From contig NZ_CP063832.1 of assembly GCF_023277925.1 (NCBI RefSeq), forward strand, positions 2,310,001 through 2,374,000: DNA of 64,000 nt, written 5' to 3'. A model generated the notes under the pieces. That model did no database searches and was not told the origin of the DNA. It worked only from the letters and a program-made list of their open reading frames with translations. Below are positions 6,806-57,745 of the stretch, in pieces. This stretch comes from Pseudomonas entomophila. Its GTDB lineage: Bacteria > Pseudomonadota > Gammaproteobacteria > Pseudomonadales > Pseudomonadaceae. Position numbers and translations under genes: made by a program. Numbering within the stretch: the first letter of the stretch is position 1; every line of letters starts with the position of its first letter.

Positions 6806-7750
6806 ATGACCCAGGCCCCCGTCCGCAAACCCACTGTCACCTTGCGCCTGAGCAAGGCCGAACTGGTGCTGGTGTTCATCACCGTGCTCTGGGGCGGTAC
6901 CTTCCTGATCGTGCACAACGTCATGACCGTCAGCGGGCCGATGTTCTTCGTTGGTTTGCGCTTTGCCGCCGCCGCCCTGTTCGTCGGCCTGGTATCGGCC
7001 CGCTCGCTGTCGGGGCTGACCTTCACCGAGCTCAAGGCCGGCGTGCTCATCGGCGTGTCGATCATGCTCGGCTACGGCTTGCAGACCATGGGCCTGCAGA
7101 CCATCAGCAGCAGCCAGTCGGCGTTCATTACCGCGCTCTACGTGCCCTTCGTGCCGCTGCTGCAATGGCTGGTGCTGGGCCGCCGCCCAGGCCTGATGCC
7201 AAGCCTGGGCATCGGCCTGGCCTTCGTCGGCCTGATGCTACTGGCCGGCCCCGAGGGCGGCGCGCTGCACTTCAGCGAAGGCGAACTGGTGACGCTGGTC
7301 AGCGCCGTGGCGATCGCCGGCGAGATCATCCTGATCAGCCGTTACGCCGGCAAAGTTGATGTACGCCGGGTCACCGTGGTGCAACTGGCTACCGCTTCGG
7401 CGCTGTCGTTCCTGATGATCGTGCCGACCCAGGAACAGCTCCCAGGCTTTTCCTGGCTGCTGTTGGCCAGCGCGGTGGGCCTGGGGGCCATGAGCGCGGT
7501 GATCCAGGTGGCGATGAACTGGGCGCAGAAATCGGTCTCGCCCACCCGCGCCACGCTGATCTACGCCGGCGAGCCGGTGTGGGCCGGCATCGTCGGGCGC
7601 ATCGCCGGTGAGCGCCTGCCGGGCGTGGCGCTGATCGGCGGGCTGCTGATCGTGCTGGCGGTGGTGGTGAGCGAGCTGAAGATCCGTCGCCAGGACGAGG
7701 CCGACACCTTGCAGAATGATGAGGCCCGCGAGCGCGAGGCGGGGTTGTAG
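6806..7750 (+). CDS. DMT family transporter (EamA)
   Basis: Inner-membrane drug/metabolite exporter of 314 aa with about ten hydrophobic helices arranged as two EamA repeats (ELVLVFITVLWGGTFLIVHNVM at about 15-37; second repeat from about residue 160, ELVTLVSAVAIAGEIILISRYAG). The conserved SSSQSAFITALYVPFVPLLQWLVLG and TRATLIYAGEPVWAGIVGRIAGERL segments are typical. ATG 6806 is preferred to TTG 6743 because it gives a normal N-terminus. Substrate unknown. It is expressed divergently from the XRE-cupin regulator. A 255 bp non-coding stretch follows before the Mrp operon. Confidence 0.9.
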   Translation: MTQAPVRKPTVTLRLSKAELVLVFITVLWGGTFLIVHNVMTVSGPMFFVGLRFAAAALFVGLVSARSLSGLTFTELKAGVLIGVSIMLGYGLQTMGLQTISSSQSAFITALYVPFVPLLQWLVLGRRPGLMPSLGIGLAFVGLMLLAGPEGGALHFSEGELVTLVSAVAIAGEIILISRYAGKVDVRRVTVVQLATASALSFLMIVPTQEQLPGFSWLLLASAVGLGAMSAVIQVAMNWAQKSVSPTRATLIYAGEPVWAGIVGRIAGERLPGVALIGGLLIVLAVVVSELKIRRQDEADTLQNDEAREREAGL

Positions 7751-8005
7751 CACCCTGCACGGCCCACGTTGGGCTGCGCTGTCGCGCAGAGAACTCTGAT
7801 TACGCGGCCAGCGTGCGCCCACAGGGAATGCGCATGGTTTGCATGCAGCCCCACGAGCACACGATCAGCCGCTATGCTCTGAAAGAAACTGTTATAAAAA
7901 AACAGCTTGTCACAGCACATTTGTAGGATCCTGCAATCGCTTGCGTGTTGGTGATCAACCGCCCGGCACGTATGATCCTTGGCAAACTTCTCAGAACAGA
8001 ACGCT

Positions 8006-10911
<2,906 letters not shown>

Positions 10912-10912
<1 letters not shown>

Positions 10913-11256
10913 TGGAAGAAGTCATTGCAGTCGCCATCGGCGTCCTGGCCGCCTCCGGGGTCTGGCTGGTCCTGCGCCCACGAACCTACCAGGTAATCAT
11001 GGGCCTGTGCCTGCTGTCCTACGGGGTCAACCTGTTCATCTTCAGCATGGGCAGCCTGTTCATCGGCAAGGAGCCGATCATCAAGGACGGCGTGCCCCAC
11101 GACCTGCTGCACTACACCGACCCGCTGCCCCAGGCGCTGGTGCTCACCGCGATCGTCATCAGCTTCGCCATGACCGCGCTGTTCCTGGTGGTGCTGCTGG
11201 CCTCCCGCGGTCTGACCGGGACCGACCACGTCGATGGCCGGGAGCGTGAAGAATGA
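10912..11256 (+). CDS. mrpC: Na+/H+ antiporter subunit C (MrpC)
   Basis: NuoK-like subunit of 114 aa with three transmembrane helices (IAVAIGVLAASGVWLVL, VIMGLCLLSYGVNLFIFSMG, LVLTAIVISFAMTALFLVVLLA). The ATG shares one base with the TGA of mrpA (TGATG), indicating translational coupling. The conserved GVPHDLLHYTDPLPQALVLTAIVI segment is typical of MrpC. It acts in the membrane as part of the hetero-oligomeric Mrp complex. Confidence 0.95.
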
Positions 11257-12932
11257 GCGGGATGAACCAACTGATCATCGCGCCGATCCTGCTGCCGCTG
11301 ATCACCGCATCGTTGATGCTGCTGATCGGCGAAAAACACCGCTGGCTCAAGGCGCGCCTGAACCTGCTGTCCACCGCCCTCGGCCTGGGCATCGCCGTCA
11401 CCTTGCTGATGTGGGTGCGCACCCAGGGCCAGGCCGAGTCCATCGGCGTCTACCTGCCGGGCAACTGGCCGGCGCCGTTCGGCATCGCCCTGGTGGTCGA
11501 TCACCTGTCGGCGCTGCTGCTGACCCTGACCGGCATCGTCGGTTTGAGCGCCCTGCTGTTCGCCCGAGCACGCTGGGACGGTGCCGGGGCCAGCTTCCAC
11601 GCACTGTTCCAGATCCAGCTGATGGGCCTGTACGGTGCCTTCCTCACCGCCGACCTGTTCAACCTGTTCGTGTTCTTCGAAGTGCTGCTGGCAGCTTCCT
11701 ATGGCCTGCTGCTGCATGGCTCGGGGCGGGCGCGGGTCAAGGCCGGGCTGCACTACATCGCCATCAACCTGTTCGCTTCGTCGCTGTTCCTGGTCGGCGC
11801 GGCCATGCTCTATGGCGTGACCGGCACCCTGAATATGGCCGACCTGGCGTTGAAAGTGCCGCTGGTGCCGGAAGCCGACCGCGGCCTGCTGCATGCCGGC
11901 GCGGCGATCCTGGCCATCGCCTTCCTGGCCAAGGCCGGGATGTGGCCGTTGAACTTCTGGCTGGTGCCGGCCTATTCGTCGGCCAGCGCGCCGGTGGCCG
12001 CGCTGTTCGCGATCATGACCAAGGTCGGCCTGTACGCCATCTTGCGCATGTGGACACTACTGTTCTCCGGCCAGGCGGGCGCCTCGGCGTTCTTCGGTGG
12101 TGACTGGCTGGTGTACGGCGGCCTGGCGACCCTGGCTGTGGCGGCCATGTCGATCCTCGCCGCCCAGCGCCTGGAGCGCCTGGCGGCCCTGAGCATCCTG
12201 ATGTCCGCTGGCACGCTGCTGGCGGCCATCGGCTTCGGCCAGTCGGTCCTGACCGGCGCCGCGTTGTTCTACCTGGCAAGCTCCACCCTGGCCCTGTGCG
12301 CACTGTTCCTGCTGGCCGAGCTGGTGGAGCGCTCGCGCTCGGCCAACGAAGCGCCGCTGGACGATGAAGAGGACGCAATGCCCTCGCCACTGGAGTCGCT
12401 GCATCCACCCAAGGGCATCAACCTGGACGACGAGCAGCAGGTGGTGATCGGCCAGATCATTCCCTGGACCATGGCCTTCCTGGGCCTGAGCTTCATCGCC
12501 TGCGCCCTGCTGATCATCGGCATGCCGCCGCTGTCGGGCTTCATCGGCAAACTCAACCTGATCAGCGCGCTGTTCAACCCGCAAGGCCTGGGCGTCGCCC
12601 CGGCGCAGCCACTGGGCACCGCGAGCTGGACCTTGGTCACCCTGCTGGTGCTGTCCGGCATGGCCTCGCTGATCGCCTTCGGCCGCGTCGGCATCCAGCG
12701 TTTCTGGAAGCCCGAGGAACGCCCCTCCCCGGTACTGCGCCGCTATGAGTGCGTACCCATCGTGATCCTCCTGAGCCTGTGTATCTTCCTCAGCCTCAAG
12801 GCCGAGCCGCTGCTGCGCTACACCCAGGACACCGCCGCCAGCCTGCGCACGCCGGAGGCCTACATCAAGGCGGTGATGGCGACGCGGCCAGTACCCGGCC
12901 CGACCACCGCCAGCCTGGAGGCACAGCCATGA
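11253..12932 (+). CDS. mrpD: Monovalent cation/H+ antiporter subunit D (MrpD)
   Basis: NuoM/N-like proton-translocating subunit (559 aa, about 14 helices). The family core is present: the MGLYGAFLTADLFNLFVFFEVLLAASYGLLLHG segment, the conserved lysine region LAKAGMWPLNFWLVPAYSSASAPVAALFAIMTKVGLYAILRM, and GMPPLSGFIGKLNLI near residue 430. An acidic cytoplasmic loop (NEAPLDDEEDAMPSPLESL) around residue 365-380 is a Pseudomonas-type insertion. It overlaps mrpC by 4 nt (ATGA) and overlaps mrpE by 4 nt. Confidence 0.95.
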   Translation: MSGMNQLIIAPILLPLITASLMLLIGEKHRWLKARLNLLSTALGLGIAVTLLMWVRTQGQAESIGVYLPGNWPAPFGIALVVDHLSALLLTLTGIVGLSALLFARARWDGAGASFHALFQIQLMGLYGAFLTADLFNLFVFFEVLLAASYGLLLHGSGRARVKAGLHYIAINLFASSLFLVGAAMLYGVTGTLNMADLALKVPLVPEADRGLLHAGAAILAIAFLAKAGMWPLNFWLVPAYSSASAPVAALFAIMTKVGLYAILRMWTLLFSGQAGASAFFGGDWLVYGGLATLAVAAMSILAAQRLERLAALSILMSAGTLLAAIGFGQSVLTGAALFYLASSTLALCALFLLAELVERSRSANEAPLDDEEDAMPSPLESLHPPKGINLDDEQQVVIGQIIPWTMAFLGLSFIACALLIIGMPPLSGFIGKLNLISALFNPQGLGVAPAQPLGTASWTLVTLLVLSGMASLIAFGRVGIQRFWKPEERPSPVLRRYECVPIVILLSLCIFLSLKAEPLLRYTQDTAASLRTPEAYIKAVMATRPVPGPTTASLEAQP

Positions 12933-45177: not shown

Positions 45178-47010
45178 TTGATACGTCCCCTCCTGCTGTC
45201 CCTCAGCCTGGCCTTGAGCTTCCCCGCCGTCGCGATGGTGAGCGAAAGCCACGGATACGCGCAGTTCGGCACGCTCAAGTACCCGGCCACCTTCACCCAC
45301 TTCGACTGGGTCAACCCGCAAGCCCCGAAAGGCGGCACCTTGCGGGCCATGGCGTTCGGCACCTTCGACACGCTCAACCCTTACACCTTCAAGGGTTCGA
45401 GCCCGGTCACCACGCCCAACTTCCTGCAGTACGGCATCAGCGAACTGAACGAGACGCTGATGGTCGGCACCGGCATGTACGACCCTTCGGGCGACGAACC
45501 CACCTCCAGCTACGGCCTGATCGCCCGCTCCGTCGAGTACAGCGAGGACCGCAGCTGGGTGGTGTTCAACCTGCGCCCCGAGGCACGCTTCCATGACGGC
45601 ACGCCAATCACCTCGGCCGACGTCGCCTTCAGTTACCGAACCCTGCTCAAGGACGGCCACCCGATCTACCGCACCAACCTGCAGGAAGTGGCCCGCGTCG
45701 ATATCCTCAACCCCCTGCGCATCCGCTTCGTGTTCAAGCGCGCCGGCAACCCGCTGCTGATCCTGCGCCTGGGCGAGATGCCGGTGCTGCCCAAGCACTA
45801 CTGGGCAAAGCGCGACTTCAAGGCCACCACCTTCGAACCGCCGCTGGGCAGCGGCCCCTACCGCATCACCGAGGTGCAACCGGGCCGACGCCTGGTGTTC
45901 GAGCGGGTAAAGGACTACTGGGGCAAGGACCTGGCCGTGAACCGCGGCAAGTACAACTTCAACCGTGTCGAATACGAGTTCTACCGCGACGCCACCGTGG
46001 CCTTCGAAGCCTTCAAGGCCGGTGAATTCGACATCTATATCGAGCACCAGGCGAAGAATTGGGCCAACGGCTACACCTTCCCCGCCGTGCGCCGGGGCGA
46101 GGTGATTAAAGCGCAGATCCCGCACCAGATCCCCACGCAAACCCAAGGCCTGTTCATGAACAGCCGCCGCGCCACCTTCAGCGACCCACGGGTGCGCCAG
46201 GCGCTGGGCCTGATGCTCGACTTCGAGTGGACCAACCGCGCCCTGTTCAACAGCGCCTACCGGCGCGCCACCAGCTACTACCCCAACAGCGAGTTCACCG
46301 CCAGCGGCCTGCCCACCGGCAAAGAGTGGCTACTGCTCAAGCCGTTCCGTGACCAACTGCCCGAAAAGCTGTTCACCCAGCCCTACCAGGTCAGCCATAC
46401 CGACGGCAGCGGCATCAGCCGCCCGGCCCTGCGCCAGGCCCTCGCCCTGTTCGCCCAGGCCGGCTGGAAACTCAACGGCCAGCGCCTGGTGGACAGCAAG
46501 GGCCAGCAGTTGCGTATGGAGCTGTTGCTGGTGAACCCGAACCTCGAACGCATCCTGCAACCTTATGTCGAAAATCTGGCCAGTATCGGTATCGATGCAC
46601 GCTTGCGTACCGTCGACCGCGCCCAGTACAAACAACGGCTCGACCAGTTCGACTTCGACATGATCCTGATGACCCTGAACCAGACCCTGAGCCCTGGCCT
46701 CGAGCAATGGTTGTATTTCCACTCCAGCCAGGCCGCCACCAAGGGCAGCAAGAACTATGCTGGCGTGAAGGACCCGGTGGTCGACCACCTGCTCGACACC
46801 CTGCTCGCCGCCCGCAGCCGCGATGACCAGATTGCCGCCGCGCGCGCCCTGGACCGCGTGCTCTCATGGCAGTACTACATGATCCCCAACTGGTACCTCG
46901 ACAATCACCGCCTGGCCTACCGCAACCGGTTCGCCTTCGTCACCACGCCGCCCTACACCCTCGGGCTGAACAGCTGGTGGATCAAGAAGACTTCGGAGAA
47001 AGCCAAATGA
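45178..47010 (+). CDS. yejA: Extracellular solute-binding protein, oligopeptide/microcin C type (first copy)
   Basis: Periplasmic peptide-binding protein of 610 aa (SBP_bac_5). It opens with TTG 45178 and a signal peptide (IRPLLLSLSLALSFPAVAMVSES). The sequence has the YejA signature HFDWVNPQAPKGGTLRAMAFGTFDTLNPYTF and ends with the [13 protein letters not shown] tail. It delivers peptides to the YejBEF importer, a system that can also take up microcin C-like compounds in enterics. It overlaps the second copy by 4 nt. Confidence 0.92.
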   Translation: MIRPLLLSLSLALSFPAVAMVSESHGYAQFGTLKYPATFTHFDWVNPQAPKGGTLRAMAFGTFDTLNPYTFKGSSPVTTPNFLQYGISELNETLMVGTGMYDPSGDEPTSSYGLIARSVEYSEDRSWVVFNLRPEARFHDGTPITSADVAFSYRTLLKDGHPIYRTNLQEVARVDILNPLRIRFVFKRAGNPLLILRLGEMPVLPKHYWAKRDFKATTFEPPLGSGPYRITEVQPGRRLVFERVKDYWGKDLAVNRGKYNFNRVEYEFYRDATVAFEAFKAGEFDIYIEHQAKNWANGYTFPAVRRGEVIKAQIPHQIPTQTQGLFMNSRRATFSDPRVRQALGLMLDFEWTNRALFNSAYRRATSYYPNSEFTASGLPTGKEWLLLKPFRDQLPEKLFTQPYQVSHTDGSGISRPALRQALALFAQAGWKLNGQRLVDSKGQQLRMELLLVNPNLERILQPYVENLASIGIDARLRTVDRAQYKQRLDQFDFDMILMTLNQTLSPGLEQWLYFHSSQAATKGSKNYAGVKDPVVDHLLDTLLAARSRDDQIAAARALDRVLSWQYYMIPNWYLDNHRLAYRNRFAFVTTPPYTLGLNSWWIKKTSEKAK

Positions 47011-48839
47011 CGCCCACCCTGCGCCGCCTGGCCGGCGGCCTGCTGCTGGCCTGCCTCACGCTCCCGGCCCTGGCCGCCCCGCAACACGCCCTGACCCTGT
47101 ACGGCGAGGCGCCGAAATACCCGGCCAACTTCCAGCACTTCGACTTCGTCAACCCCGACGCACCGAAAGGCGGCACCTTCCGCCAGTCCAGCTTCGGCGG
47201 CTTCGACAGCCTCAACCCGTTCATCAACAAGGGCGTGCCCGCCGACAACGTCGGCAGCATCTACGACACCCTGATGCGCCAGAGCCTGGACGAGCCCTTC
47301 ACCGAATACGGCCTGGTGGCCGGCAAGATCGAAAAAGCCCCCGACAACAGCTGGGTGCGCTTCTACCTGCGCCCCGAAGCGCGCTTCCACGACGGCCACC
47401 CGATGCGCGCCGAAGACGTGGTGTTCACCTTCAACGCCCTGATCAAGGACGGCGCGCCGCTGTACCGCCAGTACTACGCCGACGTCGCCGAAGTGGTCGC
47501 CGAAGACCCGCTCAAGGTGCTGTTCAAGTTCAAGCACAGCAACAACCGCGAGCTGCCGCTGATCCTCGGCCAGCTGCCGGTACTGCCCAAACACTGGTAT
47601 GAAAGCCGCGATTTCAACCGCGGCAACCTGGAAATCCCCCTGGGCAGCGGCCCGTACAAGGTCGCCGAGGTGAAGGCCGGCCGCTCGATCCGCTACGAGC
47701 GGGTCAAGGACTACTGGGCCAAGGACCTGCCGATCAACCGCGGCTTCTACAACTTCGACGTGATGACCTTCGACGCCTACCGCGACAACACCGTCGCCCT
47801 CGAAGCCCTCAAGGCCGGCCAGTTCGACTACGCCCTGGAAGTCAGCGCGAAGAACTGGGCCACCGCCTACGACGTGCCCGCCGTGCGCGATGGCCGGCTG
47901 ATCAAGGAAGAGATCCCCAACGGCAACCCGGTGGGCATGCAAGGCTTCATCTTCAACCTGCGCAAACCCATGTTCCAGGACGCCCGCGTGCGCCACGCCA
48001 TTAGCCTGCTGATGGACTTCGAGTGGACCAACAAGCAGCTGTTCAACGGTGCCTACACCCGCACCGGCAGCTACTTCGAGAACTCCGAGATGGCCGCCAG
48101 CGGCCTGCCCACGCCCGCCGAGCTGAAGATCCTCGAACCGCTGCGCGGCAAGGTGCCGGACGCGGTGTTCAACAGCGCCTTCCACAACCCCGTCACCGAC
48201 GCCAGCGGCATGATCCGCGAGCAGCAGCGCCAGGCCTACAAGCTGCTGCAGGAAGCCGGCTGGAAGATCGTCGACGACAAGATGGTGGATAAGGATGGCA
48301 AGCCACTGACCATCGAGTTCCTGCTGGCCCAGACCCAGTTCGAGCGCGTGCTGCTGCCGTTCAAGCGCAACCTCGCCGACCTTGGCATCAACCTCGAGAT
48401 CCGCCGCGTGGACGTGTCGCAGTACATCACCCGCCTGCGCTCGCGCGACTACGACATGATCGTCGGTGGCTTCGCGCAATCCAACTCGCCCGGCAACGAG
48501 CAGCGCGAATACTGGAACAGCGCCGCCGCTGACAACCCCGGCAGCCGCAACTTCATCGGCCTGCGCGATCCTGCCATCGACCAGTTGGTGGAGCAGTTGA
48601 TCAACGCCGACTCCCGGCAGAGCCTGATCGACCATTGCCGCGCCCTGGACCGTGTGCTGCTGTGGGGTTACTACGTGATCCCCAACTGGCACATCAAGAC
48701 CTCCCGCGTAGCCTACTGGAACCACATCGGCCACCCGGACAAGTCGCCCAAGTACGACATCGGCATCGACACCTGGTGGATCAAGCCCGACGTCACGCCC
48801 TCAGTGACCCAAGCCCCCGCACCGCAAGAGGCCAACTGA
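47007..48839 (+). CDS. yejA: Extracellular solute-binding protein, oligopeptide/microcin C type (second copy)
   Basis: Paralogue of the preceding binding protein with the same length (610 aa) and organisation: signal peptide [21 protein letters not shown], then [29 protein letters not shown]. The ATG at 47007 overlaps the preceding stop (ATGA) and GGAGAA lies upstream. The two copies differ throughout, so they probably bind different peptides and feed the same membrane complex. It is 1 bp from yejB. Confidence 0.93.
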
Positions 48840-48840
48840 C

Positions 48841-49914
48841 ATGCTGGCCTATATCCTGCGGCGCCTGCTGCTGATCATCCCCACGCTGTTCGGCATCCTC
48901 ATCATCAACTTCATCATCGTCCAGGCCGCCCCCGGCGGCCCGGTCGAGCAGATGATCGCCAAGCTCGAAGGCTTCGAAGGGGCCACCAGCCGCATCGCCG
49001 GCGGCGGCGCCGAAGTGTCGGTGGCCGGTTCCAACTACCGTGGTGCGCAAGGGCTGGACCCGGCGCTGATCGCCGAGATCGAGCGCATGTACGGCTTCGA
49101 CAAATCCGCGCCCGAGCGGCTGTGGATCATGGTCAAGAACTACGCCCAGCTGGATTTTGGCAACAGCTTCTTCCGCGACGCCAAGGTCATCGACCTGATC
49201 GCCGAGAAGATGCCCGTGTCCATCTCGCTGGGGCTATGGAGCACGCTGATCATGTACCTGGTGTCGATCCCGCTGGGGATCGCCAAGGCGGTGCGCCACG
49301 GCAGCCACTTCGACGTGTGGACCAGCTCGGCGATCATCGTCGGCTACGCCATCCCCGCGTTCCTGTTCGCCATCCTGCTGATCGTGCTGTTCGCCGGCGG
49401 CAGCTACTTCGACTGGTTCCCGCTGCGCGGGCTGACCTCCAACAACTTCGACGAGCTCAGTACCACCGGCAAGGTGCTTGACTACTTCTGGCACCTGGTA
49501 CTGCCCATCACCGCGCTGGTGATTGGCAACTTCGCCACCATGACCCTGCTGACCAAGAACAGCTTCCTCGACGAGATCAACAAGCAGTACGTGGTCACCG
49601 CCAAGGCCAAAGGCCTGAGCCGCACCCGCGTGCTCTACGGCCATGTGTTCCGCAACGCCATGCTGCTGGTGATCGCCGGCTTCCCCTCGGCGTTCATCGG
49701 CATCTTCTTCACCGGGTCGCTACTGATCGAGGTGATCTTCAGCCTCGACGGCCTGGGCCTGATGAGTTTCGAAGCGGCGATCAACCGCGACTACCCGGTG
49801 GTGTTCGGCACCTTGTTCATCTTCACCCTGCTCGGTTTGGTGGTGAAGCTGATCGGCGACCTCACCTACACCCTGGTCGATCCACGCATCGACTTCGCCA
49901 GCCGGGAGCACTGA
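48841..49914 (+). CDS. yejB: Microcin C/oligopeptide ABC transporter permease YejB
   Basis: Inner-membrane permease of 357 aa with six helices and the DppB-like N-terminus [37 protein letters not shown]. The YejB-specific insert between helix 1 and helix 2 ([17 protein letters not shown]) and the EAA loop ([26 protein letters not shown]) are present. It pairs with YejE to form the channel. Confidence 0.95.
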
Positions 49915-49915
49915 C

Positions 49916-50935
49916 ATGGCCCTCTCCCCCCTCAATCGCCGGCGCTTCGAGCGCTTCAAGGCCAACCGCCGCGGCTGGTGGTCGCTGTGGATCTTCCTGG
50001 TGCTGTTCGTGCTCAGCCTGGGCGCCGAGTTCATCGCCAACGACAAGCCCATCGCCGTGCGCTACGACGGCGAGTGGTACTTCCCCGCCTTCAAGCGCTA
50101 CCCGGAGACCACCTTCGGCGGCGAGTTCCCGCTGGAGGCCAACTACAAGAGCCCCTACATCCGCGAGCTGCTTGAGAAGAAAGACGCCTTCGTGCTGTGG
50201 GCGCCGATCCCCTACAGCTACCAGAGCATCAACTACGACCTGAAAGTGCCCGCCCCCGCGCCGCCCTCCACCGACAACCTGCTGGGCACCGACGACCAGG
50301 GCCGCGACGTGCTGGCCCGGGTGATCTACGGTTTCCGCATCTCGGTGCTGTTCGCCCTGACGCTGACCATCGCCAGCTCCATCGTCGGCGTGATCGCCGG
50401 CGCCCTGCAGGGTTTCTACGGCGGCTGGGTCGACCTGGCCGGCCAGCGCTTTTTGGAGATCTGGTCCGGCCTGCCGGTGCTGTACCTGCTGATCATCCTT
50501 GCCAGTTTCGTGCAGCCCAACTTCTGGTGGTTGCTGGGCATCATGCTGCTGTTCTCGTGGATGAGCCTGGTGGACGTGGTGCGCGCCGAGTTCCTGCGCG
50601 GGCGCAACCTGGAATACGTGCGCGCCGCCCGCGCCCTGGGCATGCGCAACGGCCCGATCATGTACCGGCATATCCTGCCCAACGCGATGATCTCGACCAT
50701 GACCTTCATGCCGTTCATCCTCACTGGCGCCATCGGCACCCTCACCGCCCTGGACTTCCTCGGCTTCGGCCTGCCCGCCGGCTCCCCCTCGCTGGGCGAA
50801 CTGGTGGCCCAGGGCAAGTCCAACCTGCAAGCCCCGTGGCTGGGCATCAGCGCCTTCGCCGTGCTGGCGGTGATGCTGAGCCTGCTGGTATTCATCGGCG
50901 AATCCGCCCGCGACGCCTTCGACCCGAGGAAATGA
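49916..50935 (+). CDS. yejE: Microcin C/oligopeptide ABC transporter permease YejE
   Basis: Second permease, 339 aa. The N-terminal motif LNRRRFERFKANRRGWWSLWIFLVLFVLSLGAEFIANDKPI and the periplasmic region before LLGTDDQGRDVLARVIYGFRISVLFALT are typical for YejE. The EAA loop is YVRAARALGMRNGPIMYRHILPNAMIS. It starts 1 bp after the yejB stop and ends 1 bp before yejF. Confidence 0.95.
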   Translation: MALSPLNRRRFERFKANRRGWWSLWIFLVLFVLSLGAEFIANDKPIAVRYDGEWYFPAFKRYPETTFGGEFPLEANYKSPYIRELLEKKDAFVLWAPIPYSYQSINYDLKVPAPAPPSTDNLLGTDDQGRDVLARVIYGFRISVLFALTLTIASSIVGVIAGALQGFYGGWVDLAGQRFLEIWSGLPVLYLLIILASFVQPNFWWLLGIMLLFSWMSLVDVVRAEFLRGRNLEYVRAARALGMRNGPIMYRHILPNAMISTMTFMPFILTGAIGTLTALDFLGFGLPAGSPSLGELVAQGKSNLQAPWLGISAFAVLAVMLSLLVFIGESARDAFDPRK

Positions 50936-50936
50936 C

Positions 50937-52538
50937 ATGAGCCAAGACACCCTGATCGAAGTCCGCGACCTGGCGGTGGAGTTCGTCACTGGCGAGCAGG
51001 TCAACCGCGTGGTCGACGGCATCAGCTTCGACATCCGCAAGGGCGAGACCCTGGCCCTGGTCGGCGAAAGCGGCTCGGGCAAGTCGGTGACCGCCCACTC
51101 GATCCTGCGCCTGCTGCCCTACCCGCTGGCGCGGCATCCTTCTGGCACCATCCATTACCAAGGCAAGGACTTGCTGCACCTGGGCGAAAAGCCCATGCAG
51201 CGTATTCGCGGCAACCGCATCGCGATGATCTTCCAGGAGCCGATGACCTCGCTGAACCCGCTGCACAGCATCGAGAAGCAGATCAACGAGATCCTCTTGC
51301 TGCACAAGGGCCTCACCGGCAAGGCCGCCACGGCGCGCACCCTGGAGCTGCTGGAGCTGGTCGGCATTCCCGAGCCGCAGAAGCGCCTGAAAGCCCTGCC
51401 CCATGAGCTGTCCGGTGGCCAGCGTCAGCGGGTGATGATCGCCATGGCCCTGGCCAACGAACCCGAACTGCTGATCGCCGACGAGCCCACCACGGCGCTC
51501 GACGTGACCGTGCAGTTGAAGATCCTCGACCTGCTCAAGTCGTTGCAGGCGCGCCTTGGCATGGCCCTGCTGCTGATCAGCCACGACCTCAACCTGGTGC
51601 GCCGCATCGCCCACCGCGTGTGCGTGATGCAGTGCGGCAAGATCGTCGAGCAGGCCGATTGCGCCACGCTGTTCAGCAAGCCGCAGCATCCGTATACGCA
51701 GATGCTGATCAACGCCGAGCCCAGCGGGGCACCGGCTGCGAACGCCGAAGGGGCGCCGTTGCTGAAGGTGAAGGACCTGAAGGTGTGGTTCCCGATCAAG
51801 AAGGGGCTGCTGCGCCGCACCGTGGACCATGTGAAGGCCGTGGACGGGGTGAACTTCAGCCTGCCCCAGGGGCAGACGCTGGGCATCGTTGGCGAGAGTG
51901 GCTCGGGCAAGTCCACCTTGGGGCTGGCCATCTTGCGGTTGATCTCCAGCAAGGGCGGGATTCGCTTCCATGGGCAGGATCTTGAAGGGCTGAACCAGAA
52001 GGAAGTACGGCCGCTGCGGCGGGAGATGCAGGTGGTGTTCCAGGACCCCTTTGGCAGCCTGAGCCCGCGCATGTGCGTGGCGGATATCGTTGGCGAGGGG
52101 TTACGGATTCACAAGATCGGCACGCCGGCTGAGCAGGAAGCGGCGATTGTTGCGGCGTTGGAGGAAGTGGGGCTGGACCCTCGGACGCGGCATCGGTATC
52201 CCCATGAGTTTTCCGGCGGGCAGCGGCAGCGGATTGCGATTGCTCGGGCGTTGGTGTTGAAGCCGGCGTTGATTCTGCTGGATGAGCCGACCTCGGCGCT
52301 GGATCGGACGGTGCAGCGGCAGGTGGTTGAGCTTTTGCGGAATTTGCAGGTTAAGTACAACCTGACTTATCTGTTTATCAGCCATGACCTGGCGGTGGTC
52401 AAGGCGTTGAGTCATCAGTTGATGGTGATCAAGCATGGGCAGGTGGTTGAGCAGGGGGATGCGGGGGCTATATTTCATGAGCCGAAGCATGGGTATACGA
52501 GGCAGTTGTTGGAGGCGGCCTTCATTGATAACCATTAA
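50937..52538 (+). CDS. yejF: ABC transporter ATP-binding protein YejF (fused dual ATPase)
   Basis: Cytoplasmic protein of 533 aa with two complete ABC cassettes powering the YejABE importer. Walker A GESGSGKS occurs twice (about residues 42 and 322), with signature motifs LSGGQRQRV and FSGGQRQRI and Walker [13 protein letters not shown] and [12 protein letters not shown]. The last third of the gene (from about 51,950) uses more CGG, GTT, TTG and GGG-type codons than the CTG/CGC-rich start, a visible change near the AT-rich islet. No terminator is seen. Confidence 0.94.
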
Positions 52539-53927
52539 TCGAAAAATACAAGGAAAATCAACAAACCAGATAACAGCCATTTTCCGAAATCAGAGAATAC
52601 AAATTCATACCAAAATAACAATCACCTCAGTGGCGCCATTAAGCACTCTGCCATACGCGCCCCAAAAGCCCCAGAAAACCTAGAAACCATAAACAAACAA
52701 AATAACCACAAAAAAACTATTAGCCCAAGGATTTACTTTGAAAATATCGCTGCAAAGCCGGACAACTAAAGCAGTGAGACTTAATTGTACCAACCAACCC
52801 CCATTTCCTTATAAGCATTCTTGAATGCCTACAATTCACATAACTATACGCAGCCAAGACGATTCGCTCTCCGGGATGAAGTGAGTCTCGAAGTATATTC
52901 ATATACGAGGACTTCAAACCCTTTGAAACCTTGGCGCGATCAACAAACCTCATAACACGCAACGCTCTATTTGAAAACCCTATCAACATATCAGTAGAGA
53001 TTTTTTCCTTCAAAAATTCTCGACTTAACCTAACTTGACCCCTTACACTCTCAGACTTCAATTTCTCAAAAACAGAATAAACCCATTTAGACTTTTGCTT
53101 CTCAACGGTTAAGTTGTTTTTTTCCACTCTGAGATGAATCTCACAATACGACTCCAGCTTGTCAAGCAAAAGAAAAAATGTAGTTTCAAACTTCTCTTTT
53201 TCCATAAGCTCTTGCTGAGACTTTAAAAGTTTCGTTGTCTTCCTGGCCTCTCCGGACTGTATAATAGTCGTCCTCAAAAGAACTATCAAACCAATAAAAC
53301 TTAAAGCCGGATTTGTCAAGCCACCAACAAAATCGCCGATCTGCCCCATATTCGACGCCAACTCGAAATCCTCATCAACAAATCCAAAAAAAATTAGCAC
53401 TACCAACCCAACTACACACACCGCACCCCATCCAATTAAAAAAGGACTGAACGGATAAACTTCTTTCTCCTGACATGACTCTTGCGCCTGACTCTTTAAC
53501 AAAACAGCATAATGAATTGCCAAACCAACCGAAAAAATGCTTATGACAATTGCACCAATAATCAAAAAAAACATAATAGCCCTTTAATGCATTACTCATC
53601 GCGAGCCAATACACTTGTATAAGCCCACCCTTTGCGCGACACCGCAACATTTTGTAGCACTCAAATTACAATGATGTCACATTGACATCAAAAAGAAAAC
53701 TGCTGACGTGAAACTCAAACCTTGATGATGCCAAGCAACCTTGAACCGCTCAAGCTATCGACCAAAGTCAGATTAAACCCCTTTCGTGTAGTCCATTTCC
53801 CAAACATACTCCCACAAGCCTTTTCCCGTTGCGACCACTCAAACATCGTCCTACTCTCGGCAAGTCGCTGAATCCAGCGACCGGCTTTGACAGGCCGCGA
53901 CGGTACTAGGATATGCAGCACCTTCAA
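52539..53927. other. AT-rich islet, probable horizontally acquired DNA
   Basis: From just after the yejF stop to about 53,700 the sequence becomes strikingly AT-rich (runs such as AAAAAATTAGC, CATAATAGC), unlike both flanks. It carries one gene (AbiC-like, 52720-53574). The 52539-52719 flank and 53575-53927 flank have no convincing genes. No transposase, integrase or tRNA target was seen, so the mechanism of insertion is unknown. Confidence 0.75.
52720..53574 (-). CDS. Putative phage abortive infection (AbiC-like) membrane protein
   Basis: Protein of 284 aa. Two N-terminal membrane helices (FFLIIGAIVISIFSVGLAIHYAVLL and LIGWGAVCVVGLVVLIFFGF) are followed by GQIGDFVGGLTNPALSFIGLIVLLRTTIIQSGEA, then a charged segment QQELMEKEKFETTFFLLLDKLESYCEIHL, and near the end SYMNILRDSLHPGERIVLAAYSYVN. 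This order matches the putative AbiC family (two helices, GDxxGGxxNP motif, E-T-FF-LL, L..E motif) found in phage-defence contexts. AAAGG lies 6 nt before ATG 53574. Strong AT bias suggests recent transfer. The defence role is inferred. Confidence 0.72.
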   Translation of the reverse strand: MFFLIIGAIVISIFSVGLAIHYAVLLKSQAQESCQEKEVYPFSPFLIGWGAVCVVGLVVLIFFGFVDEDFELASNMGQIGDFVGGLTNPALSFIGLIVLLRTTIIQSGEARKTTKLLKSQQELMEKEKFETTFFLLLDKLESYCEIHLRVEKNNLTVEKQKSKWVYSVFEKLKSESVRGQVRLSREFLKEKISTDMLIGFSNRALRVMRFVDRAKVSKGLKSSYMNILRDSLHPGERIVLAAYSYVNCRHSRMLIRKWGLVGTIKSHCFSCPALQRYFQSKSLG

Positions 53928-54064
53928 TGGCAGCTGTACGTGCGGGCACGCTTGCGTGCGCCGGAACTTCCTATGTCCGCCGGTCTGTCAACCCACGTAC
54001 AGCTGCCACCCTTCTGTTTGACAGCGGGCAGGTGGTGGCTCCTTTAGGGATATAGGAGCTCAAC
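53928..54064 (+). promoter_or_regulatory. Highly structured leader with SD-sequestering hairpin upstream of the DUF6124 gene
   Basis: A 15-bp perfect stem joins 53928-53942 (TGGCAGCTGTACGTG) with 53994-54008. Inside it are two sub-hairpins: GCACGC/GCGTGC (53946-53951 with 53954-53959) and CCGG/CCGG (53961-53964 with 53980-53983). A second domain, GCTCCT (54038-54043) with AGGAGC (54054-54059), covers the Shine-Dalgarno AGGAG located 6 nt before the ATG at 54065. This architecture (closed multiloop plus SD-masking hairpin) resembles a cis-regulatory RNA such as a riboswitch or protein-binding leader. The pairings are read directly; the ligand is unknown. Confidence 0.65.
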
Positions 54065-54310
54065 ATGTTAAAGATCGTCCCCGATCCACCCCACAACCAC
54101 CACTCCCTCGAAGACACCATCATCCAGGCCACGGAGTACGCTCTCTGCGCGCAGACCGTGGCACATCAGGCTGTTCTGCTGCATCCAAAGTCGCCCGTGT
54201 CGATTCTGGTCATGGCCGCCATGCATGAAATGGAGGCGCTGCGGGTGCTGCTCGAATCGGCGTTGATTCAGGTGCAGATGCCGCAGGTGGAGCCTCCGAC
54301 GTTGCATTAA
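54065..54310 (+). CDS. DUF6124 family protein (81 aa)
   Basis: Small cytoplasmic protein MLKIVPDPPHNHHSLEDTIIQATEYALCAQTVAHQAVLLHPKSPVSILVMAAMHEMEALRVLLESALIQVQMPQVEPPTLH. The M-x-K-x-x-P-x-P-P opening and a helical body resemble the Pseudomonas-restricted DUF6124 family, whose function is unknown. Translation start is fixed by AGGAG 6 nt upstream, which is itself paired in a leader hairpin. A REP pair follows. Confidence 0.75.
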   Translation: MLKIVPDPPHNHHSLEDTIIQATEYALCAQTVAHQAVLLHPKSPVSILVMAAMHEMEALRVLLESALIQVQMPQVEPPTLH

Positions 54311-54344
54311 GCCGGTATGTCGTGAGTTGCCTGGGCGGGCCCTG

Positions 54345-54410
54345 TTCGCCGGCAAGGCCGGCTCCTACCTGGGGCGCGATTCGCCTGTAGGAGCCGGCGT
54401 TGCCGGCGAA
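54345..54410. repeat. REP pair after the DUF6124 gene
   Basis: 54345-54368 and 54387-54410 (core TTCGCCGGCAA..GCCGGCTCCTAC) are reverse complements with one mismatch across an 18-bp spacer. Same subfamily as the elements at 37141 and 40424. Confidence 0.88.
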
Positions 54411-54451
54411 TGGGCCAGGCCAGGCATCGAGACTTTCAGGGAGATCGAGCA

Positions 54452-54721
54452 ATGAGCACAGACGACACCACACCCCACACCACCGTGGGCAAGACCAAGT
54501 TCTACCAGGGTGCAAAGCATACCGACCCGCTGTTCTGCATCGAATCCGGCATCCCGTGCCAGCATGCACGGGAACAGGCTTCGGAGTTGATGGGCTGCGT
54601 GTGCGACCTGACCATCACCGGGATCATGGAGGACAAGCCTCAACTGATCTGGGCGTCGTATTACCTGAGCGCGCTGGCCAAGGCGCTGATGGATGATGCG
54701 GAGTTGGGGATGAAGCACTGA
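54452..54721 (+). CDS. DUF3077 domain-containing protein (89 aa)
   Basis: MSTDDTTPHTTVGKTKFYQGAKHTDPLFCIESGIPCQHAREQASELMGCVCDLTITGIMEDKPQLIWASYYLSALAKALMDDAELGMKH. The pattern F-x-V/I-x-x-G-I-P-x-x-x-A-x-x-x-A-S-x-L-M is that of DUF3077, a small Pseudomonas-specific family of unknown role often beside DUF6124 genes. ATG 54452 follows AGGGAG by about 9 nt. Cytoplasmic, no membrane segment. Confidence 0.8.
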   Translation: MSTDDTTPHTTVGKTKFYQGAKHTDPLFCIESGIPCQHAREQASELMGCVCDLTITGIMEDKPQLIWASYYLSALAKALMDDAELGMKH

Positions 54722-54743
54722 TTTCACTGGTGCATGCGGGCCC

Positions 54744-54787
54744 TGTGGGAGCGGCCTTGCCGAGGCGTCGGCAAGGCCGCTCCCACA
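54744..54787. repeat. REP-like tight hairpin, terminator-like
   Basis: A perfect 20-bp inverted repeat (54744-54763 with 54768-54787, core GTGGGAGCGGCCTTGCCGA) with a 4-nt loop. It is the third REP subfamily in the window and lies 23 bp after the DUF3077 stop, where it could stabilise or end that transcript. Confidence 0.85.
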
Positions 54788-54868
54788 AGGGTGTTGTTCG
54801 ACGATGACATTGGCATCGGCAAGCATTTCCTGTATCACGACCGCTTCACACCACGCCAGGGAAGCCCC

Positions 54869-55336
54869 ATGCACCACCGCCTCACCGCCATCTGCCACAA
54901 AGCCTGTTTTTCCCGCAGCACCTGTGCCTGGTTGGCCATCGATGATGTGCCCATCGAGGTCTGGCTGGCCAAGCATCTGGACCAACCTGATCTCGAACGC
55001 AGCGGCCTGTCCTTGATGTGGTTGCTGGACGAGGAAGAAGACGCCCTCGCCAACCGGCGCATCCTCCCCGCCGCGGATGGCACCTCCACCCTGGTACCGC
55101 TGCTGGTGTGCAGCGACGACATGAACTTCGACTGCTTCGCGCTGATGACCGAACAGGTGATCGACGACGATACCGTGCACTGGCGGCGGTTCGGGCACAG
55201 CGCCACCGGCGGGCTGGAAGTGGGTGCTTCCATGCACTGGTATCCAGACAGCAAAGCGGTGAGCTTCAACCTCAGCGACTTCAACCATGCACTGAGTGAG
55301 CACCGTCGGCTGATCAAGGCGTGTGTCGGTCAATAA
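54869..55336 (+). CDS. Hypothetical protein (155 aa)
   Basis: ATG 54869 follows AGGGAAG and avoids starting inside the REP hairpin. The product is acidic and soluble (MHHRLTAICHKACFSRSTCAWLAIDDVPIEVWLAKHLDQPDLERSGLSLMWLLDEEEDALANRRILP...GLEVGASMHWYPDSKAVSFNLSDFNHALSEHRRLI). The alternating strand pattern with late 'VSFNLSDFNHAL' is reminiscent of small immunity-type proteins but no family is recognised. First of three consecutive unknown genes ending at a truncated VgrG. Confidence 0.65.
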   Translation: MHHRLTAICHKACFSRSTCAWLAIDDVPIEVWLAKHLDQPDLERSGLSLMWLLDEEEDALANRRILPAADGTSTLVPLLVCSDDMNFDCFALMTEQVIDDDTVHWRRFGHSATGGLEVGASMHWYPDSKAVSFNLSDFNHALSEHRRLIKACVGQ

Positions 55337-55398
55337 CCATCGCTACCCTGTTGCAACAACCAATGCTCAATGCCTGCGCCTATAACCAAGGAAGCTGT

Positions 55399-56058
55399 AT
55401 GGACACCTCCCTGCTGGATGACTGGCGCGCCCTGGTCGACGGCCGTAGCGATATCGACAAATCCCAGTTCATCGCGTTGTTCAAGGCGCATGGCCAGCCA
55501 CACGAGGTGGCCACCATCCTCGAAGGTTTCGAGCACGCCCCCGAACTGGCCAGGCGCACGCTCGAAGTGCTGGCCGCCGGCACGCTTCCCTACCTTTATC
55601 TGCTCCCTTCGCAACGTGGCACCCCCGAACAACTGGCAGCCGCCGCCCGGCGTTGGCTGGATGTACAAGCCGACTTTTTCGAGCGCACGGGTGATGCAGA
55701 GCTGATGGCCCTGACTCGCAATGCGCGGGTGATCTGCACACCCATGGCAGACCTCAAGGCCATCGACAACTTCGATATACCGGGCACCTGGGCCAGCGAA
55801 GCATTGGGCGATGCGGTTCGCCAAGCCGCCAACTGCCATACCGCCGCCGACTATGCATTGTTCGAGGCCTGGTATGGCATCGCGGCAGACTATGGGCTGG
55901 CCTGGTACATCGCCGCGCCGCTGATTGCACTGGACATCGACTTTTCCGCCTACTTCGAACTATGGCGGCTGGGTGGCACCTACCTGCACCTGGGGGCGGA
56001 ATGCTGGGTCGCCCAGCGCTTTGAAGCGTCGGCCGAGGGTAACGTCAATGAGCCTTGA
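55399..56058 (+). CDS. Hypothetical protein (219 aa)
   Basis: ATG 55399 preceded by AAGGAAG. Helical, acidic, soluble protein (MDTSLLDDWRALVDGRSDIDKSQFIALFKAHGQPHEVATILEGFEHAPELARRTLEVLAAGTLPYLYLLPSQRGTPEQLAAAARRWLDVQADFFERTG...). No recognised domain. It overlaps the next gene by 11 nt, indicating co-expression. Beside a vgrG remnant, an immunity or chaperone role is possible but unproven. Confidence 0.65.
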   Translation: MDTSLLDDWRALVDGRSDIDKSQFIALFKAHGQPHEVATILEGFEHAPELARRTLEVLAAGTLPYLYLLPSQRGTPEQLAAAARRWLDVQADFFERTGDAELMALTRNARVICTPMADLKAIDNFDIPGTWASEALGDAVRQAANCHTAADYALFEAWYGIAADYGLAWYIAAPLIALDIDFSAYFELWRLGGTYLHLGAECWVAQRFEASAEGNVNEP

Positions 56059-56486: not shown

Positions 56487-57698
56487 TCATTGGCCCGTAC
56501 TAACGCCATCCAATCCCCGCCCCTGACAGCTGCAGCACACGCAACCACTGATCAGCGGCTGATCGGGATCACCTTCAAGAAAAGTCACCCTGACCTCCAT
56601 CCCCGTCCGGGGCGGCGTGGTTTGGCAATGCCAATCGGAGACCAGCTTCAGCCAGCAACTGCGCGTGTCGCCAACGCGCTCTTCGCGGTCCCAGGGGAAC
56701 TCGACCTTGACCCTGGCCAGGCGCCGATCACTGCGCGCCGCCTCATCCTCCACGGCAACGACCACCGCAGTCTGGTTACCGGACACCTGGGGCTTCCTGT
56801 GAGCCAACGGCGGACGGTAGCTCGCGTGCCACGCATACCCCGTGAAGCGATTACGGTAGCCCTGATAAAATTCGCCCTCGTTGCCAGTGGCGAGGTGTTC
56901 ACCGGACAACTGTGGCTGGCGGCCTTCATGGATAACCTGGGTCAGCAACCAGGGGGCGTTCCACGCGTTGTGCGGATGGCCAGTGATTTCCAGCACATGG
57001 CCACTGGCCAAGCGCGGCTGGTCACTGTGCCCTTCCGTTCGGCGACAGGCCGCGTGGTGGCGCTCCATCAGGTGCTTGATCACCGGCTCGTCGGCGACGC
57101 TGTCGGGCGCTTGCCTGTAGGCCGTCGGAATGCCATTTCTGGTAAAGGCGCACTGGTGATCGCCCAGCACCAGCACGTGCCCCCGCGCACTGTGTTGAAA
57201 GTGGAAGTGGATACCCTCCTCTTCGCACAGGCGCTGGACAAAATGCAGGTCCGTTTCGTCGTACTGGGTGCAGATGTCGCGTGCGCGGTAATTCGCCCGT
57301 AGCTCAAGCCGGTAGGCATCGCCCAGGATCCCGTGCTCTTCCAATATCAAGGCAACGATTTCTGGCACCGATAACCGTTGATAGATCCGTTGGTTGATGC
57401 GGTGGCGCAAGTAGGACAGTTGCGGCACCAGGGCCAACTTGTAGCGCGAGTCTTCACCACATTGGGCAATGTGGTAGACCCGCCCATGAACCCCATTGCC
57501 CTGGCTGTCGAAGGCCAGGAACGCCTCGCGGTCGATCAGGCTGTCGAGGTCCAGGTCAGCCCGTTCGCCGACCAGTTCCACATTGAAGAAGTACGGCCTG
57601 CTGATGGCCTCTTCTCCGCTGAACGCGAGTACGTGGAGTCCATGTTCTACACCGTCGATGGTCAAGCTGAAGTGGGTCTGCCGAGTTGGGCTGAACAT
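56487..57698 (-). CDS. vgrG: Truncated type VI secretion tip protein VgrG
   Basis: 403 aa from ATG 57698 (AGGGAAC upstream). The gp27-like part is complete (FSLTIDGVEHGLHVLAFSGEEAISRPYFFNVELVGE; LEEHGILGDAYRLELRANYRARDICTQYDETDLHFVQRLCEEEGIHFHFQH). The OB-fold RVKVEFPWDREERVGDTRSCWLKLVSDWHCQTTPPRTGMEVRVTFLEGDPDQPLISGC is present. Full-length Pseudomonas VgrG proteins continue for roughly 250 further residues with a gp5-type beta helix; here the frame stops after an atypical tail CCSCQGRGLDGVSTGQ. It is therefore likely degenerate or an unusually short tip protein. Confidence 0.85.
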   Translation of the reverse strand: MFSPTRQTHFSLTIDGVEHGLHVLAFSGEEAISRPYFFNVELVGERADLDLDSLIDREAFLAFDSQGNGVHGRVYHIAQCGEDSRYKLALVPQLSYLRHRINQRIYQRLSVPEIVALILEEHGILGDAYRLELRANYRARDICTQYDETDLHFVQRLCEEEGIHFHFQHSARGHVLVLGDHQCAFTRNGIPTAYRQAPDSVADEPVIKHLMERHHAACRRTEGHSDQPRLASGHVLEITGHPHNAWNAPWLLTQVIHEGRQPQLSGEHLATGNEGEFYQGYRNRFTGYAWHASYRPPLAHRKPQVSGNQTAVVVAVEDEAARSDRRLARVKVEFPWDREERVGDTRSCWLKLVSDWHCQTTPPRTGMEVRVTFLEGDPDQPLISGCVCCSCQGRGLDGVSTGQ

Positions 57699-57745
57699 CC
57701 GCTGTTCCCTCTCTACATAAGCCAAGGATTAGGCGCACGAAACCA

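Follow-up and report, generated by a model that had tools for sequence, protein, structure and literature searches.

Why would a Pseudomonas chromosome place a large, stably folded RNA leader in front of a gene for a protein of 81 amino acids? The leader in question occupies positions 53928–54064 of a 64,000-nucleotide stretch of the Pseudomonas entomophila chromosome (hereafter the window), where an earlier note, written from the letters alone, had described a multiloop closed by a long stem and a hairpin over the ribosome site. We report here that the leader is a C4 antisense RNA, and that it belongs to a unit found many times in this genome and elsewhere in the genus.

C4 is best known from the immunity of P1 and P7, and in P1 it is cut out by RNase P. 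According to a 2025 review (PMC12197685), C4 prevents translation of ant in the region of the ribosome site, and P1/P7 heteroimmunity is based on it; Weinberg et al. 2010 (PMC2864571) list both c4 antisense RNA and c4-a1b1. A 2016 paper on A. baumannii (PMC5320573) describes many C4-like sRNAs (Group 1) in one genome, with variable target loops, strong expression and apparent processing at a GG motif. The Pseudomonas units described below are alike in having many C4-like RNAs per genome and variable loops. However, the targets are left open in the passages of the Acinetobacter paper that we consulted, whereas in Pseudomonas we identify a matched cis target gene family.

The leader is a C4 antisense RNA

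The 137-nt leader folds with a minimum free energy (MFE) of −65.2 kcal/mol (z = −4.14), and none of 200 shuffled sequences folds as well. The fold contains the perfect 15-bp stem noted earlier, formed by 53928–53942 with 53995–54009 and closing over two hairpins. The hairpin over the Shine-Dalgarno (SD) sequence is present too, although its outer part has 7 bp in the MFE structure and not the 6 proposed. An extra hairpin at about 54010–54035, absent from the earlier note, holds the site that we call a2 below. An Rfam scan of the whole window gave a sole match above cut-off, the C4 antisense RNA (RF01695) at 53923–54013 on the plus strand, at 72.9 bits against the curated cut-off of 45 bits for this covariance model. 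The multiloop is the C4 fold. Permissive scanning adds a c4-a1b1 element (RF03163) at 53851–53901, also on the plus strand, whose 45.5 bits fall just under its cut-off of 46.7. What had been suspected to be an undescribed RNA is therefore a known family with a known companion motif.

The view that the leader is truly structured is borne out by the 28 C4 copies of its own genome. Their MAFFT alignment, a few rows of which seem wrongly placed, shows a two-sided compensatory change in at least one sequence at 13 of the 22 predicted pairs; 8 of these 13 pairs belong to the closing stem and 4 to the first inner hairpin. SD masking by a hairpin does not hold up as a general layout, because GGAG lies within the last 34 nt before the start in just 34 of 75 units from four genomes. 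Among those 34, at least three of the four bases are paired in the local MFE structure in 30, taken as a raw count.

The unit has the layout of the P1 immunity locus

The whole unit runs on the plus strand, like each of its parts, from the promoter region to the end of the DUF3077 gene (53764–54721); this block is common to many non-syntenic copies, and its blastn edges are repeated across the named loci defined below. A candidate promoter, TTGCGA-N17-TACTCT (53829–53857), was picked out by eye, with similar boxes in other class I units; a scan by promoter consensus found none. Positions 53824–53833 are conserved at 0.96 across 16 orthologs, and the second promoter box is less conserved. Two putative targets precede C4: a1 (TTGACAG, 53887–53893), complementary to the a' segment of C4, and b1 (53909–53915), which can form 7 pairs with the b' loop and is statistically weaker than b2. 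Within C4 lie the b' loop (53965–53979) and a' (CTGTCAA, 53985–53991), the latter able to form 7 pairs with either a2 or a1. By analogy with the GG start of P1 C4, we expect the mature 5' end near 53929. Downstream of C4 follow a2 (TTGACAG, 54018–54024), complementary to a' and invariant in the 16 orthologs, and b2 (54048–54058), which includes the SD sequence and matches 53968–53978 of the b' loop over 11 contiguous pairs.

The first gene, ORF1 (54065–54310), encodes the 81-aa protein MLKIVPDPP..., and ORF2 (54452–54721) encodes a DUF3077 protein; its start at 54452 was picked by eye within a mechanical ORF that begins at 54410. The inverted repeat between the two genes (54336–54420) we take, by eye, to resemble a Pseudomonas REP pair. 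Beyond the unit, two ORFs without a Pfam match (54734–56058) are followed by a gene for a VgrG-like protein with Phage_GPD and Phage_base_V domains on the minus strand (56487–57725).

The P1 record has the same order: a1 (48255–48261), b1 (48269–48276), C4 (48343–48419), a2 (48423–48429) and b2 (48452–48459), then icd, starting at 48470, and ant1/ant2. There icd is annotated as an inhibitor of cell division, a2 and b2 as C4 target sites repressing icd-ant translation, and a1 and b1 as putative. The window unit shares with P1 the order a1-b1-C4-a2-b2-gene, similar spacing, the C4 fold and the position of b2 at the ribosome site, and a1 and a2 read TTGACAG in both. It is nevertheless unlike P1 and P7 in several respects. 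The first gene encodes an MxKIVPDPP microprotein and is followed by a DUF3077 gene rather than by icd-ant, so that the operon downstream of C4, an ORF1 without a family match plus the DUF3077 gene, holds no antirepressor. Moreover, one genome carries 28 C4 matches instead of one locus, the unit sits at a fixed chromosomal site, and the b addresses differ between most copies.

Each C4 loop tends to match its own target

In the genome of the window, the longest complementary run between b' and the SD region averages 9.39 nt for cognate pairs and 6.05 nt for non-cognate pairs, and the best of 20,000 permutation means is 7.43. With a slightly different target window, cognate runs in four genomes (28, 17, 16 and 14 units) average 9.32, 9.06, 10.31 and 9.71 nt against about 6, and cognate b'/b2 pairing beats all 20,000 permutations in each genome. 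An earlier duplex test was confounded because it included the GC-rich stem arms; there the cognate target was best in 9 of 28 rows, and none of 10,000 permutations did as well. The predicted specificity is real on average and imperfect. By energy, the cognate target ranks first for 14 of 28, 7 of 17, 9 of 16 and 11 of 14 loops. The contiguous run of b' pairs is no longer than 6–7 in some units, among them 4108002, 120936 and 1580900. Among class I units, cross pairing within a genome is weak (mean −7.5 versus −13.2 for cognate pairs, with 3.2% at or below −12).

The upstream b1 site pairs less convincingly, with permutations as good as the cognate arrangement in 308 of 20,000 cases in the window's genome and in 1, 0 and 0 of 20,000 in the other three. 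The a'/a2 pair is common within classes of units (for example CTGTCAA or TTCTCAC) and so does not single out the cognate target.

C4 units recur within genomes and across the genus

How many such units does one chromosome hold? The 5.76-Mb genome has 28 C4 matches over the cut-off and 25 a1b1 matches at E ≤ 0.001, of which 11 exceed their cut-off; an a1b1 match at E ≤ 0.001 lies directly upstream of C4 in 25 of the 28 cases. A frame with a PDPP motif, mostly KIVPDPP near the N-terminus, starts 44–59 nt after C4 in 26 of the 28 units, the other two being 3467676 and 3469552. In units 604977 and 3707019 this frame has just 18 and 25 codons, so that the MLKIVPDPP start forms a separate short ORF ahead of another small ORF; short ORFs of this kind were also seen in other genomes (loci L199, L210, L228 and L233). 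All 21 KxVPDPP-coding sites of the genome fall inside C4 units, and 21 of 23 DUF3077 matches and 4 of 5 DUF6124 matches lie at most 1.5 kb downstream of a C4, with a chance expectation of about 0.4%. Three further genomes, selected for many KxVPDPP sites, have C4 at 47 of 49 such sites; the remaining two are L203 and L225, the latter cut by a contig end.

A run of at least five T lies between a1-b1 and C4 in 5 of 75 units, with a stem that is not clear in local folds. In units 781020, 780249, 3467676 and 3469552 (L011, L012) the run stands beside GC-rich repeats that look like terminators. Attenuation of C4 synthesis through b1 is possible in T-run units.

Across the genus, at least one C4, phage C4 included, is present in 184 of 199 sampled genomes, and a class-wide sample of 273 other genomes has 17 with a C4; copy counts per genome are lower bounds, with at most 20 (genus) or 15 (class-wide) candidates scored in each. 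By eye, several of the best-scoring genus matches among those listed precede phage-like genes. Phages thus use C4 too, and the figure of 184 is not a count of the microprotein unit. The KxVPDPP pattern itself occurs in 82 of the 199 genomes, with its maximum of 21 in the genome studied here, and the reversed pattern gives 0–2 per genome. Together with the C4 found at KxVPDPP sites in the three further genomes, this upholds the earlier suggestion that an RNA-plus-microprotein unit recurs widely in Pseudomonas.

In phage phiAH14b, an 89-bit C4 lies close to a Rha-like gene. A related unit, made up of C4, a1b1 and a DUF3077 gene, is present on a P. putida plasmid. Among 50,697 phage records there was no match to ORF1 or to the DUF3077 protein; PHROG 36471 matches the DUF3077 protein (E = 1e-43). 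Of seven viral contigs that carry a class I C4, four (L247, L248, L250 and L249, the last read only to KMVPDP) show a KxVPDPP-type start, in stretches that may be prophage or host flank. By eye, C4 and the short KMVPDP start of L249 are followed by a DUF3077-like ORF and then by one resembling an ImmA/IrrE metallopeptidase.

Addresses change at fixed chromosomal sites

We compared 79 named loci, the best 80 of 248 places, of which 78 are labelled Pseudomonas and one Pantoea. C4 could be parsed in 75 of them and b' in 68 of those 75. Of the other four, L118 is without C4, L133 has a partly deleted C4, and L156 and L162 have a C4 visible by eye. At least 16 of the 79 carry the window's flanking stretch 47000–52519, at the end of which lies an ABC transporter ATPase gene. 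The alignment of 16 orthologs consists of the window plus 15 of these 16 loci (L118 was dropped).

Across the orthologs, mean identity reaches 0.93 in the C4 5' arm with the first hairpin, 0.95 in a' with the 3' arm and 1.00 in a2; it is 0.83 in the coding sequence and drops at b1, b' and b2. The three b elements are, unexpectedly, hypervariable: with gaps counted as differences their identities are 0.51, 0.47 and 0.42, compared with 0.72 at third codon positions and 0.65 at 26 four-fold sites. A firm claim of positive selection would be premature, because gaps were counted and the neighbouring spacer just upstream of C4 is itself at 0.46 by the same measure.

At this one site, 11 distinct b' loops occur among the 16 orthologs, and b' pairs with its own b2 at −14.5 kcal/mol versus −7.4 kcal/mol for non-cognate targets, a result that none of 20,000 permutations equals. 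A second site has 9 distinct loops among 11 syntenic loci. The addresses therefore change in place and remain matched.

Do units within one genome avoid each other's addresses? Loops at most two edits apart make up 2 of 60 same-genome pairs and 70 of 2,018 non-syntenic between-genome pairs, which is not a significant difference. Among 96 class I units, identical loops occur in 0 of 185 same-genome and 48 of 4,278 non-orthologous between-genome pairs (p = 0.27), and loops within two edits in 3 of 185 and 129 of 4,278 (p = 0.37).

In two natural loci C4 is not intact. ORF1 is kept where C4 is missing (L118) and where it is partly deleted (L133), so silencing is not strictly required. L118 is also without the usual upstream region, and its ORF1 may therefore be silent. 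Separately, L120 (about 6995–11540, P. entomophila COR5) has three extra partial ORF1-DUF3077 copies beside the unit.

Proteins of the unit

The earlier assignment of the 81-aa protein to DUF6124 finds no support, because ORF1 has nothing at or near a cut-off in Pfam (best E 0.99) and no match in NCBIfam. Two paralogs in the same position score 25.7 and 26.6 bits with the DUF6124 model (PF19619), whose cut-off is 27. ORF2 is a DUF3077 member (PF11275, 56.8 bits, cut-off 21). We found 249 homologs of ORF1; the 120 listed are named hypothetical or uncharacterized, three also DUF3077 in UniRef, and nearly all are from Pseudomonas. An AlphaFold2 model of ORF1 predicts a two-helix hairpin (helices 15–39 and 44–71) with a mean pLDDT of 82 and a pTM of 0.59. 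A search against a defence-system library gave no match. By eye, the 73-aa Icd of P1 shows no visible kinship to the MLKIVPDPP... protein, and where icd stands in P1 gives no more than a lead to what ORF1 may do.

Discussion

The order of the elements and their complementarity make it very probable that the locus is a chromosomal C4 antisense unit that silences ORF1 at translation through b'/b2 and a'/a2 pairing; C4 would most likely block translation of the gene directly after itself. From this layout we infer the following course. A single transcript would run through a1, b1, C4, a2, b2 and ORF1, and probably on through the DUF3077 gene. C4 would be excised from it, presumably by RNase P, as in P1 and as described in the A. 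baumannii paper (PMC5320573). The freed C4 would pair back, a' to a2 and b' to b2, and the b'/b2 duplex would cover the ORF1 ribosome site. Through polarity, silencing of ORF1 would probably also lower expression of the DUF3077 gene. A class of units has the a pair in common, and the b pair appears largely private to each copy; each unit would thus mainly silence itself, together with any copy that arrives bearing an identical address, in the manner of P1/P7 heteroimmunity. Production of the protein would be confined to times when C4 runs short: upon entry into a cell without this address, or when C4 is lost or titrated. We read the whole, from its sequence, as a P1/P7-like heteroimmunity that may have been copied many times over, giving chromosomal microprotein operons an address code.

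What could such a code be for? One reading is that the units are self-silenced selfish Pseudomonas cassettes with C4 as an immunity tag, expressed only in cells that lack the same address, and thus an RNA heteroimmunity outside phages. New addresses would then be continually favoured and mutually deaf sets would accumulate. We regard this as possible and rather doubtful. A stronger candidate, though still short of probable, is domesticated regulation, in which paralogous small helical proteins are each held in check by C4 as a self-limiting translational brake, and the divergence of addresses is compensated drift and not a conflict between copies. The fixed site beside the same transporter genes in at least 16 of the 79 named loci, the lack of ORF1 or DUF3077 matches in the phage records and the non-significant avoidance of shared addresses within genomes all speak for it. 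The divergence of b1, b' and b2 beyond four-fold sites speaks against it, with a force reduced by the counting of gaps as differences and by the equally divergent spacer.

The small protein behind an RNA silencer in many copies also recalls type I toxin-antitoxin systems, in which an RNA represses translation of a small-protein mRNA. If ORF1, alone or with the DUF3077 protein, were harmful, C4 would be its RNA antidote in an addiction module, and in P1 the gene that C4 silences from this position is icd, annotated as inhibiting cell division. Unlike in type I systems, C4 sits within the 5' leader and on the strand of the gene itself, and toxicity is hypothetical here. Moreover, an ORF1 match persists in L118 and L133, where C4 is not intact, the defence-system library gave no match and ORF1 is not visibly related to Icd; we consider such a module unlikely. 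It is less likely still that the C4 set works mainly in trans, as a store of immunity RNAs for use when C4-type phages enter the cell. Such phages exist in the genus, as the phiAH14b locus and the best-scoring matches ahead of phage-like genes attest, and the letters of a2 are identical in P1, but every C4 has a cis target of its own and the cognate pairing is strong. Finally, we give next to no credence to a cis-acting sensor, the riboswitch or protein-responsive leader first envisaged, that would open the SD hairpin. The stable fold and the hairpin over the SD sequence had favoured it. However, the only Rfam match above cut-off is C4, a known antisense family, the SD sequence is the predicted target of its b' loop, the hairpin is not general, and among orthologs the loops vary more than any other part, unlike a ligand pocket.

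The known systems that come closest to the unit are the C4 loci of P1 and P7, the C4-like sRNAs of A. baumannii and type I toxin-antitoxin modules. In the literature that we searched, which left most subscription papers outside, we found neither a coupling of C4 to the microprotein/DUF3077 family nor a description of a fast-changing matched address. C4 itself is known; what appears to be new are C4 units that occur many times per chromosome, with different addresses, before microprotein-DUF3077 operons. C4 is thereby seen attached many times in one chromosome to an uncharacterised small-protein family. The units form a natural antisense-target set whose cognate and cross pairing can be read from sequence, which would make address specificity and turnover directly testable, and they offer a first handle on the DUF3077 and DUF6124 proteins.
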